Shown: piece after piece, positions 2,414 through 6,627 of the stretch
How the letters are laid out: each line of letters begins with the position of its first letter
How positions within the stretch are numbered: the first letter of the stretch is position 1
Translations under genes and position numbers: made by a program
The notes under the pieces: generated by a model
What the model saw: the letters and a program-made list of their open reading frames with translations, nothing else
Told to the model about the DNA's origin: nothing
Database searches by the model: none
Assembly: GCA_012517315.1 (NCBI GenBank)
Contig: JAAYVE010000029.1
Location: 124,001 to 188,000 of the forward strand
Reading direction: 5' to 3'
Source of the DNA: Deltaproteobacteria bacterium
GTDB taxonomy: Bacteria > Desulfobacterota > Syntrophobacteria > Syntrophobacterales > Syntrophobacteraceae
Length of the DNA: 64,000 nt

Positions 2414-4093
2414 ATGAATGCAGTGGTCGCTTTGATTGTCGGTTTCGTAGTCGCTGTGATCGGGTACCGGTTTTATGCCAGTCGAGTGGATGCGAGAATC
2501 ATCCAGGCGGATCCCAAGCGAGCCACCCCTGCCACCATGTACATGGACGGGGTGGATTTCATGCCCACCAGCAGGAACATCCTCTTCGGCTATCAGTTCA
2601 AATCCATTGCGGGCGCCGGTCCCATCATCGGCCCCATCATCGCCATCCAGTGGGGATGGCTCCCCGCCTTGCTTTGGATTCTCCTGGGGACTTTTTTCAT
2701 CGGTTGGGTTCAGGACTATTCCAGTGCCATGATCGCAGTGCGCAACGAAGGAGCCTCCTTCGGGGGATTGAGCTACCGGTTTATTTCCCCCCGGGCGCGG
2801 ATCATCCTCCTCTCTTTCATCTACTTCTATCTCCTGCTCATCGTGGGCGCGTTCGGTAACGTCGTGGTGAGCACCGCCATCAACCTGAAAGCCGCTCCCA
2901 TGGCGTGGCTGTTTCTCACCATCGCGGGGATCCTGGCCGGCCAGATGATCTATCGATGGAGAAAAGACATTCTGTTGACCACCGCGCTGACCGTGCTCAT
3001 CACTTTGATCGGTATCTGGGCGGGAACCATGGCCCCTTCCGACAAGGTGCTCGGTGAGTCTCTGGCCAACAGCCGGTGGTTGTGGGCCATCGCCGCCTTT
3101 GTCTTTTGCTACTTTGCTGCGGTGCTCCCCATCTGGAGATTTGCTCTGCCCATAAACTACGTTGCGGCTTACATCGTTTTCCTCGGCCTGTTTTTCGGGG
3201 TCATCGGTGTGCTTGTCCTGCGCCCTGATTTCACCCTCCCCGCTTACACGGAATTCACCATCAAGATTGGGCCCATGTGGCCCATCATGTTCGTGACCAT
3301 CGCCTGCGGTGCCATCTCCGGCTGGCACAGCGTGGTCTCCAGTTCCGGAACCGCCCGCCAGTTGGAAAGTGAGCTGGATGCCCGCCCGGTGGGTGCGGGG
3401 GTCATGTTCGTGGAAATGGTCCTGGCCATTTTCGCTCTCATCATCGCCGGCACCATTTACGCCTCCCCTGCCGAATACGGTGCTGCAGTGGCCAAAGGAC
3501 CGGGCGGCGTCTTCGCCGCCGGGGTGGGCAAGTTTCTCGGTGCCCTCGGACTCCCCATCGAACTGGGCAGATCTTACGGCAGCGTCATGATGATCGTTCT
3601 GGCCATCACCATCATGCAGCTTGTGGTGCGGTTCATGAAAGTGGCCACGTCGGAGCTGCTCGGTGACGTGAGCCCCATTTTTAAGAACGCTCACGTGGGA
3701 ACGTTCGTTGCGAGCATCCTGGGAATGGTGCTGGTTCTCACAGGATGGTGGCAGTACCTCTGGGTTCTCTTCGGGGGCGCCAACCAGCTCATGGCATCCC
3801 TAGCCCTTATGCTCATCACGGCATGGCTCATGTCCGAGGGAAGGAGCACCACCTGGGTCTTTTATCCCATGATCTTCATGTTCGTCACCACGGTGGCGGC
3901 ACTCCTCTACACCTCCTACTCCCTCCTGAGCAAGGTTCTCTCTGGAGCAGTGAAGGGAGAAGCCCTCATCGGGAACACCATCATGGGCATCGTGGGATTT
4001 TTCCTGGTCATCGCGGCTTTCTTCCTGGCGGTCGAGGCGTTCAAGGCTTTTGGCCGCTATAAGACCCTGAAGGCGCAGCCGGTCTCCGCCTGA
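2414..4093 (+). CDS. cstA: CstA-type carbon starvation / peptide-pyruvate permease
   Basis: A 559-residue polytopic inner-membrane protein of the CstA family, which in E. coli imports peptides and pyruvate during carbon starvation. The family signature is clear near residues 45-110: Met-Asp-Gly-Val-Asp-Phe-Met-Pro, Phe-Gly-Tyr-Gln-Phe-Lys-Ser-Ile-Ala-Gly-Ala-Gly-Pro-Ile-Ile-Gly-Pro, then Gly-Trp-Val-Gln-Asp-Tyr-Ser. More than a dozen hydrophobic segments follow. It is shorter than E. coli CstA (about 700) but normal for the compact form. AAGGAGG lies about 8 bases before ATG 2414. It heads a plus-strand group with the small protein at 4246 and the two ArsA ATPases, although 150 bases separate it from the next gene. 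Confidence 0.93.
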   Translation: MNAVVALIVGFVVAVIGYRFYASRVDARIIQADPKRATPATMYMDGVDFMPTSRNILFGYQFKSIAGAGPIIGPIIAIQWGWLPALLWILLGTFFIGWVQDYSSAMIAVRNEGASFGGLSYRFISPRARIILLSFIYFYLLLIVGAFGNVVVSTAINLKAAPMAWLFLTIAGILAGQMIYRWRKDILLTTALTVLITLIGIWAGTMAPSDKVLGESLANSRWLWAIAAFVFCYFAAVLPIWRFALPINYVAAYIVFLGLFFGVIGVLVLRPDFTLPAYTEFTIKIGPMWPIMFVTIACGAISGWHSVVSSSGTARQLESELDARPVGAGVMFVEMVLAIFALIIAGTIYASPAEYGAAVAKGPGGVFAAGVGKFLGALGLPIELGRSYGSVMMIVLAITIMQLVVRFMKVATSELLGDVSPIFKNAHVGTFVASILGMVLVLTGWWQYLWVLFGGANQLMASLALMLITAWLMSEGRSTTWVFYPMIFMFVTTVAALLYTSYSLLSKVLSGAVKGEALIGNTIMGIVGFFLVIAAFFLAVEAFKAFGRYKTLKAQPVSA

Positions 4094-4144
4094 TCCGGTC
4101 CCTTCGGGGCGGTGCCAGGCCTCGTGCCAAAGCCTTATAAGTGC

Positions 4145-4172
4145 CCCCAGACACGGAAACGCTTTCCTGGGG
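4145..4172 (+). other. Hairpin between cstA and the small membrane-type gene
   Basis: CCCCAG (4145-4150) pairs with CTGGGG (4167-4172) around a 16-base loop. There is no T-run. It may separate cstA expression from the downstream genes. Confidence 0.3.
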
Positions 4173-4245
4173 AGGCATTGGGCAGACTGCATGAGGGAAC
4201 TCATGGAAAGACGGGTGGAAGGATCTGACGAAAGGAGATTTGTGC

Positions 4246-4518
4246 ATGTCGGAAGAAGAGAAGAGGAAAGGTGGAATCTTCAAAGCAGTCAAGGAGTTCG
4301 TCTACGGGGTCGCGGCCCATGACTCGGCCCGGTTTGCCCTGAAAACCCGCTCGAGTATGGAACATCTTTTCATACTCATCACCATGGGAGACATGCTGGG
4401 GGTTCCCATTCTGCCCCCTTACTATTCCCTGAGACTCCTTCCCTACGTGGTTCCCCAGATTTCCACCTGGAAGCGACGCATGCTGAGAGAAAAGGATCTC
4501 ACGGATGCCTTGGCGTGA
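4246..4518 (+). CDS. Small hydrophobic-segment protein upstream of ArsA pair
   Basis: A 90-residue protein I do not recognise. AAAGGAG stands 8 bases before ATG 4246, so translation is well supported. The N-terminal third is charged (Ser-Glu-Glu-Glu-Lys-Arg-Lys). Residues about 38-71 are hydrophobic and rich in Leu, Ile, Pro and Tyr, with Pro-Ile-Leu-Pro-Pro-Tyr-Tyr in the middle. A basic stretch (Lys-Arg-Arg) and a polar tail follow. It could be a membrane-attached or monotopic peptide. It lies between cstA and two ArsA/Get3-type ATPases in the same direction, about 95 bases from the first, so a role as their client or membrane partner is conceivable but unproven. Confidence 0.75.
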   Translation: MSEEEKRKGGIFKAVKEFVYGVAAHDSARFALKTRSSMEHLFILITMGDMLGVPILPPYYSLRLLPYVVPQISTWKRRMLREKDLTDALA

Positions 4519-4614
4519 CAGATCGGGAAACGGTCGGCCCGTTCCCCGTGTCGGCCTGCGGTGCGGGGGGAACGGGTTCTACACCATCATACGACGGCCA
4601 ACAAACAGAGAGGG

Positions 4615-5604
4615 GTGATTCCTATTACGCTCGCACGCATTTTCCAGCAGTATCCAGACCGGCGATACATCATGTTCGGGGGGAAGGGAGGACTGGGAAA
4701 GACCACTTTTTCCGCCGCAACAGCTTATTATCTCGCGAAAACGGGGAAGAAGGTGCTCGTGTTTTCCGTGGACCCCCAGGCGTCTCTGAGCGACATTTTC
4801 CAGCGGGACATTTTCGGGAAAGGTCCAACGGAGATCATGCCGAACCTCTTCGCCCAGGAAATCGATGCGGACCGCCGCGTCAAGGAGTATCAACAGGAGA
4901 TCCGGCAGAAGATCTTCGACATGTACGGAATGGATCGCATTCCCGACGAGATCGAGAGCTACATCCAGGCTGCGGCTGCGGAACCCGCCATGGAGGAGAG
5001 CGCCATTTTTGACGAGGTGGTGGACATCGTCGTCAAGGGCGGCTACGACTATTACATCTACGACCTGGTTCCCCTGGGCCACGCACTCTATTATCTCAGC
5101 ATGGCGTCCGTGTACGATGCCTGGATCGACAAGATCACGAAGCTGCGCGAACAGATGAGTGAGTACGACCAGGTGGCATCCGTCATCCGCCGGGATAAAG
5201 AGGCGGAGGAGGACATGATCCTCAAGGAACTGCTTTACATCAAGGACCGCATCAACAAGTCCTCCGGGATCCTCACGGACAAGAAGCAGACCGCATTTTT
5301 CTTCGTCCTGACCGCCGAAGAAATGGTGATCAAAGACACCATGAAGGCAGCGGAGCTCTTCGCCAAGTTCGATGTGCCGCTGAGCGGCTACATCATCAAC
5401 AGGGTGCTGCCGCCCGAACTCAAGAACCAGAACATTCCCGAATACCTCAGGAACCGGCTTAAAATGCAGGACCACTACCTGGAAGTCATCGAAAGGGAAT
5501 TCTCGGGGAACATCCATGCGTCGGTTCCGGAAATGGAACGTGACGTGACCGGCTTGGCGATGATCGAAAAGATGAGCCGGGCCATGTACGGCGAATATCT
5601 CTGA
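4615..5604 (+). CDS. ArsA/Get3-family ATPase, first of a tandem pair
   Basis: A 329-residue soluble P-loop ATPase of the ArsA/Get3 type, cousins of which power arsenite extrusion or carry tail-anchored proteins. Deviant Walker A Gly-Gly-Lys-Gly-Gly-Leu-Gly-Lys-Thr-Thr at residues 22-31. The switch I motif is Ser-Val-Asp-Pro with the catalytic Asp kept (D53). The usual Asp-Thr-Ala-Pro-Thr-Gly-His motif is changed to Asp-Leu-Val-Pro-Leu-Gly-His (150-156). Start: GTG 4615 is favoured because both paralogues then begin Val-Ile-X-Ile-Thr; GTG 4561 is the alternative. It stands 21 bases before its paralogue. No arsenic genes are nearby, so arsenite transport is unlikely. Client unknown. Confidence 0.88.
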   Translation: MIPITLARIFQQYPDRRYIMFGGKGGLGKTTFSAATAYYLAKTGKKVLVFSVDPQASLSDIFQRDIFGKGPTEIMPNLFAQEIDADRRVKEYQQEIRQKIFDMYGMDRIPDEIESYIQAAAAEPAMEESAIFDEVVDIVVKGGYDYYIYDLVPLGHALYYLSMASVYDAWIDKITKLREQMSEYDQVASVIRRDKEAEEDMILKELLYIKDRINKSSGILTDKKQTAFFFVLTAEEMVIKDTMKAAELFAKFDVPLSGYIINRVLPPELKNQNIPEYLRNRLKMQDHYLEVIEREFSGNIHASVPEMERDVTGLAMIEKMSRAMYGEYL

Positions 5605-5625
5605 TGCATGAGGCGGGGGACCAAA

Positions 5626-6627
5626 GTGATTGCCATCACCAAGAGCATGAAAGAGTTCATGAAGGATCATCCCCGGCAGAAATACATTTTTTTCGGGGGC
5701 AAGGGAGGTGTAGGAAAGACGGTCATGGCTGGTGCTGCGGCCATCTGGTCCGCCGGGCAGGGTCGCAGGACCCTTCTGGCATCCACCAATCCCGTCCACA
5801 GCCTTTCCAACCTGCTTGGCCAGGATGTTTTCGGGAAACCGACTCCGGTGGAAGGCGTGCCCAATTGCCACGCCTTCGAAATCGACACTCGTGACACCAT
5901 CGAGCGTTCCAAGCGCGAAATCCGTGAAAAGATCAACTGGTTTCTCAAGTTTGCGGACATCACCACCAAAGCGGAGGATTTCATCGAATCGGCCACTATG
6001 AATCCCGCCTTCGAGGAATCCGCCATGTTTGAGAACATGATGGACCTCATGTTCAAGGACGAATACGAGTTCTACGTCTTTGACACCGCCCCCACCGCCA
6101 ACGCCCGGAGGCTGTTGGGCATGTCCAAGGTGTACTCCATGTGGGTGGAAAAGATGGTGAAGAGCCGGGAAGAGGCGAAATCCCTGAGGGAGATGCTTTC
6201 TTTCACCAAGAAGAAGGAGGATAAAGACCCTTTGCTGGACTACCTGCTCAGCCTGAGGGAGAGAATGGCGCACGCCAAGGAACTTCTCACCGATGAAGCC
6301 CTGACCGCCTTCTATTTCGTCACGCTGCCCGAAAGCCTGCCCATCGCGGTCATCACCCGTTTCATCAACTGGTTCCATGAATTTGGAATCCCGGTGGGAG
6401 GAGTCATTGTGAACGGCGTCATTCAAAAGGAGCAGGCGGGCACCGACGCAGCCGAATTCGTCCTCAACCGCATCAAGATGCAGGAGGAGCATCTCCGGAC
6501 CATCGAGAAGATCTTCGGAGACGGGGTGAGAGCTGTCGTGCCGCTTTTTGAAACGGAAGTCAAAGGGACCCACATGCTTCACCGAATGGTGGAACGTCTC
6601 TTTGTAAACAACGGGGGGACCGTTTGA
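5626..6627 (+). CDS. ArsA/Get3-family ATPase, second of a tandem pair
   Basis: A 333-residue paralogue of the preceding ATPase. Walker A Gly-Gly-Lys-Gly-Gly-Val-Gly-Lys-Thr at 24-32. Switch I reads Ser-Thr-Asn-Pro (N55), where Get3 and ArsA have Ser-Thr-Asp-Pro; the matching Get3 D57N substitution is known to block hydrolysis. The later motif keeps Asp-Thr-Ala-Pro-Thr but lacks Gly-His (Asp-Thr-Ala-Pro-Thr-Ala-Asn, 153-159). It therefore looks ATP-binding but poorly hydrolytic and may pair with its neighbour as an asymmetric heterodimer, like the two halves of E. coli ArsA. GTG 5626 is chosen by paralogue alignment and a preceding GGGGGA; ATG 5608 is possible. Translationally close to the upstream gene. 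Confidence 0.88.
   Translation: MIAITKSMKEFMKDHPRQKYIFFGGKGGVGKTVMAGAAAIWSAGQGRRTLLASTNPVHSLSNLLGQDVFGKPTPVEGVPNCHAFEIDTRDTIERSKREIREKINWFLKFADITTKAEDFIESATMNPAFEESAMFENMMDLMFKDEYEFYVFDTAPTANARRLLGMSKVYSMWVEKMVKSREEAKSLREMLSFTKKKEDKDPLLDYLLSLRERMAHAKELLTDEALTAFYFVTLPESLPIAVITRFINWFHEFGIPVGGVIVNGVIQKEQAGTDAAEFVLNRIKMQEEHLRTIEKIFGDGVRAVVPLFETEVKGTHMLHRMVERLFVNNGGTV

Follow-up and report, generated by a model that had tools for sequence, protein, structure and literature searches.

The window analysed here is a 64,000 bp stretch of a Deltaproteobacteria bacterium genome (family Syntrophobacteraceae; GenBank assembly GCA_012517315.1, contig JAAYVE010000029.1, positions 124,001–188,000). The region of interest contains four genes on the same strand: a gene for a CstA-type transporter, a gene for a small cory/CstX-like protein (hereafter cory), and two adjacent genes for Get3/ArsA-type ATPases, A and B (Table 1).

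Table 1. Genes of the ATPase A/B locus, with positions in the window and profile scores.
Product	Position	Strand	Profile match
CstA, carbon starvation / pyruvate-peptide transporter family	2414..4093	+	PF02554, Pfam 455 bits
cory/CstX-like protein, ~90 aa	4240..4518 (ATG 4246 likely)	+	NF041419 36.9 bits
ATPase A, predicted hydrolytic subunit	4615..5604	+	PF02374 244 bits, TIGR00345 236.7 bits
ATPase B, predicted ATP-binding, non-hydrolysing subunit	5608..6627	+	PF02374 222 bits, TIGR00345 219.1 bits

Both ATPases belong to the GET3/ArsA/TRC40 family: their whole-protein profile scores lie far above the cut-offs (24.3 bits for PF02374, 135 bits for TIGR00345), and both contain the deviant P-loop GKGGxGKT with its signature lysine. 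ATPase A (start GTG 4615, stop ending at 5604; 329 aa) carries the P-loop GGKGGLGKTT, the switch I sequence SVDP (D53), and D150-L-V-P-L-G-H156. ATPase B carries the P-loop GGKGGVGKT, the switch I sequence STNP, and DTAPTAN in the switch II stretch DTAPTANARRLL. Read from ATG 5608, the ATPase B open reading frame encodes 339 aa and the switch I Asn is N61; read from GTG 5626, the same residue is N55. The second start is the likelier one, because most homologues also start there and because of a Shine-Dalgarno-like aggcggggg. A sequence-only reading of this DNA had described an ATPase with SVDP and DLVPLGH, followed by one with STNP and with DTAPT but no GH; the reading frames and motifs are in place, and its numbering (N55) is right if translation of B begins at GTG 5626.

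The closest solved relatives of A and B are the archaeal Get3 structures 3zq6 and 3ug6, with which both proteins align from end to end and which read STDP and DTAPTGH at the matching positions. Mapping onto these structures places A D53 and the B Asn at the position of the switch I Asp, while A DLVPLGH and B DTAPTANARRLL fall on DTAPTGHTLRLL. The pair thus departs from the canonical two-site arrangement of Get3/ArsA proteins, in which every subunit has the switch I Asp and DTAPTGH. The changes had been called a complementary loss, a description that needs one correction: A has lost the T/A/T of switch II while keeping the Walker-B-type Asp and GH, and B has lost the catalytic Asp and GH.

The distribution of the pair was examined in three surveys, drawn mostly from metagenome-assembled genomes. 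Firstly, a B-seeded survey of 247 genomes from the same phylum as the window found B orthologues (62–82% identity) in 24 other genomes; A adjoins each of them, shortened in one case by the contig end. Secondly, an A-seeded scan of GTDB species genomes gave 334 relatives, and B adjoins A in all 80 loci examined (the best 80 of the 334). Judged from record titles, these loci come mostly from Deltaproteobacteria/Desulfobacterota and Chloroflexi, with others in Bacillota and in one metagenome-assembled genome each labelled Actinomycetes and Spirochaetes. Thirdly, a B-profile survey of 199 genomes, Bacillota by record title, yielded pairs in seven, of which four share no more than 45–49% identity with the window proteins. 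Because its search pattern was FSVDPQAS, the A-seeded scan favours D in A; no such bias attaches to the two B-seeded surveys, and they give the same result. Neither gene was found as an orphan in the two B-seeded surveys (247 and 199 genomes) or in the 80 A-seeded loci, and the two reading frames overlap as ATGA in about a quarter of 99 pairs.

The proteins were aligned as 104 A rows (93 distinct sequences) and 105 B rows (95 distinct); as a joint A+B alignment, only read-through fusions were taken. Switch I carries D in 104/104 A rows and N in 105/105 B rows. GH is present in every one of the 104 A rows and absent from all 104 readable B rows, and both P-loop lysines are retained in all readable rows of either subunit. 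Since the key residues do not vary in the 93–95 distinct sequences available for each subunit, even at 45–49% identity, the motif pattern is not due to chance. Co-conservation of D53/N55 and of the two motif variants, proposed earlier as a check, therefore holds over ~100 pairs from several phyla, and no pair within the A/B family keeps both full motifs. The sequence asymmetry of A and B is real, old and fixed. The four divergent Bacillota pairs (L219–L222) read STDP and DMPPFGH in A (the latter in the three that are readable) and SLNP and DTAAVAN in B; their CstA is ~37% identical to that of the window. Lacking the catalytic Asp and GH, B could also be a decaying duplicate without function. 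This is extremely improbable, and already contradicted by conservation: identity in B is 62–90% across most loci, and none of the 95 distinct sequences departs from the Asn or from either lysine.

Is asymmetry a general property of tandem ATPase genes of this family? Among single-gene CstA-type ATPases—12 of 13 with a cory-like gene or CstA visible alongside in the stretch read—the switch I D is found in 13/13, all with D-T-[AP]-P-T-G. Three split ArsA pairs from ars operons, verified by their neighbours (ArsD in 3/3, ArsR in 2/3, Acr3 in 2/3), have D in 6/6 halves and keep DTAPTGH in both genes. Asn at switch I is absent from the 13 single-gene ATPases, the six split ArsA halves and nine other relatives. 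The degeneration is therefore tied to the two-gene CstA-type module, rather than to tandem arrangement in general.

In a phylogenetic tree, A and B form sister clades (support 99/97 for A+B, and 100/99 for each of A and B), with the single-gene and archaeal forms falling outside A+B. The topology is consistent with one old duplication; it comes with a program warning on meeting long branches, and the root is the midpoint only. The window's genome encodes a third full-length ArsA-family protein (L188, G000:C28, 4268–5452; 395 aa), which reads SLDP and DCAPTAE and sits on a very divergent, separate branch.

A and B could each form a separate homodimer, with an active A2 and an ATP-locked B2 serving as sensor or competitor; all P-loop residues are kept in each subunit, and Get3 itself is a homodimer. 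We regard this arrangement as improbable, given that A and B are never found apart, often overlap translationally, derive from one duplication and carry opposite fixed substitutions.

The sequence-only reading had left the client of the ATPases unknown, which proves too weak: CstA and cory/CstX recur beside the ATPases, a conserved neighbourhood already published in 2010 for related operons (PMC2963123). The gene order CstA>cory>A>B is found in most loci. CstA and cory lie beside the pair in 19 of 20 loci (the twentieth ends at the contig end), with CstA divergent, on the opposite strand, in three of the 19. Among the best 80 of the 334 A relatives, the exact order occurs in 45 loci and a version with two cory genes in 12. 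Roughly a dozen loci have CstA divergent, on the other strand or missing from the stretch read, and the transporter may therefore not be an obligatory partner. In seven loci with an intact cory-A-B (L049, L051, L052, L103, L109, L111 and L112), the CstA close by lies on the opposite strand and is only distantly homologous (~42%); CstA may thus be a replaceable partner. The CstA of the window is the only one in its genome.

As stated in the earlier reading, no arsenic gene lies beside the pair. An arsenical function of A and B was considered and rejected: the genome's only Acr3 match is on another contig, and ArsD was not found in the genome. Neither protein is an arsenical pump ATPase ArsA, since their TIGR04291 scores (100.5 and 117.1 bits) compare with a cut-off of 650 and ars neighbours are lacking. 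The GlnQ-type ABC genes downstream were likewise rejected as parts of the module, because their adjacency to the pair is not conserved in relatives.

The small protein between CstA and the ATPases contains one hydrophobic stretch, has K/R-rich ends on both sides, and terminates in TDALA. It is a relative rather than a member of the cory-CC-star family by the curated cut-off (36.9 bits against 80 for NF041419), and the terminal CC is absent. Its conservation ranks among the highest in the module and extends to the charged and proline residues of its hydrophobic part, and in most Desulfobacterota loci the A-adjacent copy is 86–97% identical to that of the window. Its predicted structure is a long helix, a PP hinge and a second helix, at moderate confidence (pLDDT 74.5, pTM 0.45). 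A C-terminal CC was found in the cory proteins of three single-gene operons (L227 1981–2271, L230 1941–2231 and L231 4284–4544) and in 0/99 A-adjacent copies, which suggests that the CC end and a symmetric ATPase go together.

High-scoring cory genes (>140 bits) are confined to A/B genomes among the 247; in G005, which is counted among these, the pair is represented only by a fragment of A at the end of a contig. A second cory gene, of lower score, is present in 16/26 A/B genomes versus 5/221 others (Fisher p 1.6e-14, a value inflated by relatedness). It lies directly before the first in Chloroflexota-type loci and on another contig in the window's genome. In a cory tree several solitary copies group with the Chloroflexota second copies (88/92, from few columns). 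It is conceivable, if unlikely, that cory was duplicated in parallel with the ATPase, such that each half of a half-dead Get3-type heterodimer would have its own membrane partner in an ATP-gated CstA complex, present in several phyla after one old duplication. Two divergent second cory genes lie outside the operon: one in the window's genome (L177, G000:C57, 4397–4744), before a thioredoxin-2-like gene, and one in G140 (L178, 4353–4655), between FeoB and an ABC/ABC-3 type transporter.

A small protein with one hydrophobic stretch raises a different role for the ATPases. The A-B heterodimer could be a dedicated Get3-like targeting factor: instead of acting on the finished transporter, it would bind the hydrophobic segment of cory, or else part of CstA, and insert this into the membrane. 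The closest solved relatives being archaeal Get3 fits this, as does the stretch after the switch II helix, which is long in archaeal Get3, short in split ArsA, and kept in both A and B; in A, however, this stretch is charged rather than hydrophobic. Known tail anchors are conserved mainly in hydrophobicity. In the hydrophobic part of cory, by contrast, the individual residues are conserved, charged and proline residues included, and because of this the idea of cory as a tail-anchored client was demoted; nor do the K/R-rich ends of cory suggest a tail anchor. Targeting is a possible role, but the less probable one, and the conservation of cory tilts us slightly toward gating or energising of CstA via cory over membrane insertion of cory.

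How, then, might an asymmetric pair work? In Get3/ArsA proteins, the ATP of each subunit is served by that subunit's own switch I Asp, in cis, and by the P-loop signature Lys of the partner, in trans. The D57N mutant of Get3 binds ATP and does not hydrolyse it (PMC12506534). Combining these points, site A (A D53 with the B signature Lys) should hydrolyse ATP, while site B (Asn in place of Asp, with the A signature Lys) should only bind it and would stay closed, like Get3 D57N. A and B would be the two halves of one ATPase made from adjacent, co-expressed genes: B would keep the dimer together and determine its state, and a single hydrolysis per cycle, in A, would drive opening. Given DLVPLGH, A could be impaired as well. 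The pair would dock on cory and in this way gate CstA or energise it, much as ArsA serves ArsB. In evolutionary terms, a symmetric single-gene ATPase would have been duplicated and later fixed as an asymmetric pair.

A and B were also modelled without a template as one joined chain, the single in-frame stop being read as a residue; the confidence is modest (pLDDT 67.6, pTM 0.58). Compared with E. coli ArsA (1ihu), both halves align over 518 residues (3.6 Å, Z 25.8), a match that is favoured because the halves are linked in cis as a pseudo-dimer.

An obligate asymmetric pair with one hydrolytic and one regulatory site had been proposed from the sequence. The D/N co-conservation, the constant adjacency, the single duplication and the intact single-gene relatives all argue for such a pair; from these and from the neighbourhood we infer (i) the heterodimer, (ii) hydrolysis at one site, (iii) cory as the dock, and (iv) the action on CstA, with the heterodimer and the CstA link well founded. 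The position of A and B beside CstA and a small helper protein points to a probable one-sided motor for CstA. On balance, we find it rather probable that A-B is an asymmetric Get3/ArsA-type heterodimer, A hydrolysing and B binding ATP only, that acts on CstA through cory.

Several known systems resemble the locus. Castillo and Saier (2010) listed 26 CstA-ArsA associations, 24 of them with CstX, and adjacent ArsA genes in two organisms, Pyrobaculum arsenaticum and Symbiobacterium thermophilum (31% and 25% identity); they proposed that CstA is energised by ArsA, with CstX as a linker and ArsA perhaps a homodimer, and remarked of the switch I Asp that it 'can be substituted only by N', but took this no further (PMC2963123). 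Those operons share with the window CstA, a ~90-aa CstX and ~330-aa single-domain ArsA homologues, a cluster type seen at window positions 2414–6627 and in most relatives; from its size and context, cory is presumably the published CstX. Unlike the present analysis, the published account is without fixed asymmetry, duplication tree or site assignment (PMC2963123). No paper found in the open-access literature, to which the search was confined, describes the A/B asymmetry.

Mycobacterium tuberculosis BagA/BagB (Rv3679/Rv3680; PDB 6bs3–6bs5) are also adjacent Get3-like genes, whose products were solved together: 6bs3 holds two proteins in one crystal entry, titled Get3-like A and B. BagA-type relatives have EVEGRQ for switch I, while BagB-type relatives have GSGGVGKT, without the signature Lys, together with TIDP; these losses are opposite to each other and lie at other positions than those of A and B. 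Sequence similarity to A and B is weak, and membership was rejected on profile scores (NF053622/NF053621: 53.4/39.7 bits for A and 40.3/43 for B, against cut-offs of 400/521). In the open-access literature searched, nothing relevant came up on BagA/BagB or on CstA together with Get3. ArsA, fused or split, consists of two non-identical homologous halves forming one ATPase, as A and B would in a heterodimer; split ArsA of ars operons differs in having D and DTAPTGH in both halves, and in the ars genes that are absent at the A/B locus. Get3/TRC40 shares fold and motifs with A and B, but is a homodimer with two intact sites. The intersubunit CxxC zinc motif is present in the archaeal Get3 rows and absent from the A and B rows shown.

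The 2010 study, which suggested homodimers, did not explain why some CstA-linked operons have two ArsA genes. Here, a natural counterpart of Get3 D57N is fixed in one subunit. This yields an exact prediction, namely a single site of hydrolysis in each dimer, together with a ready-made set of mutants. A/B would join mycobacterial BagA/BagB as a second Get3-like pair that is asymmetric, the opposite losses of the two pairs falling at different positions. E. coli CstA is a pyruvate/peptide transporter described without such an ATPase; A/B would provide a test case for whether CstA can be powered or gated by an ATPase of the ArsA type.
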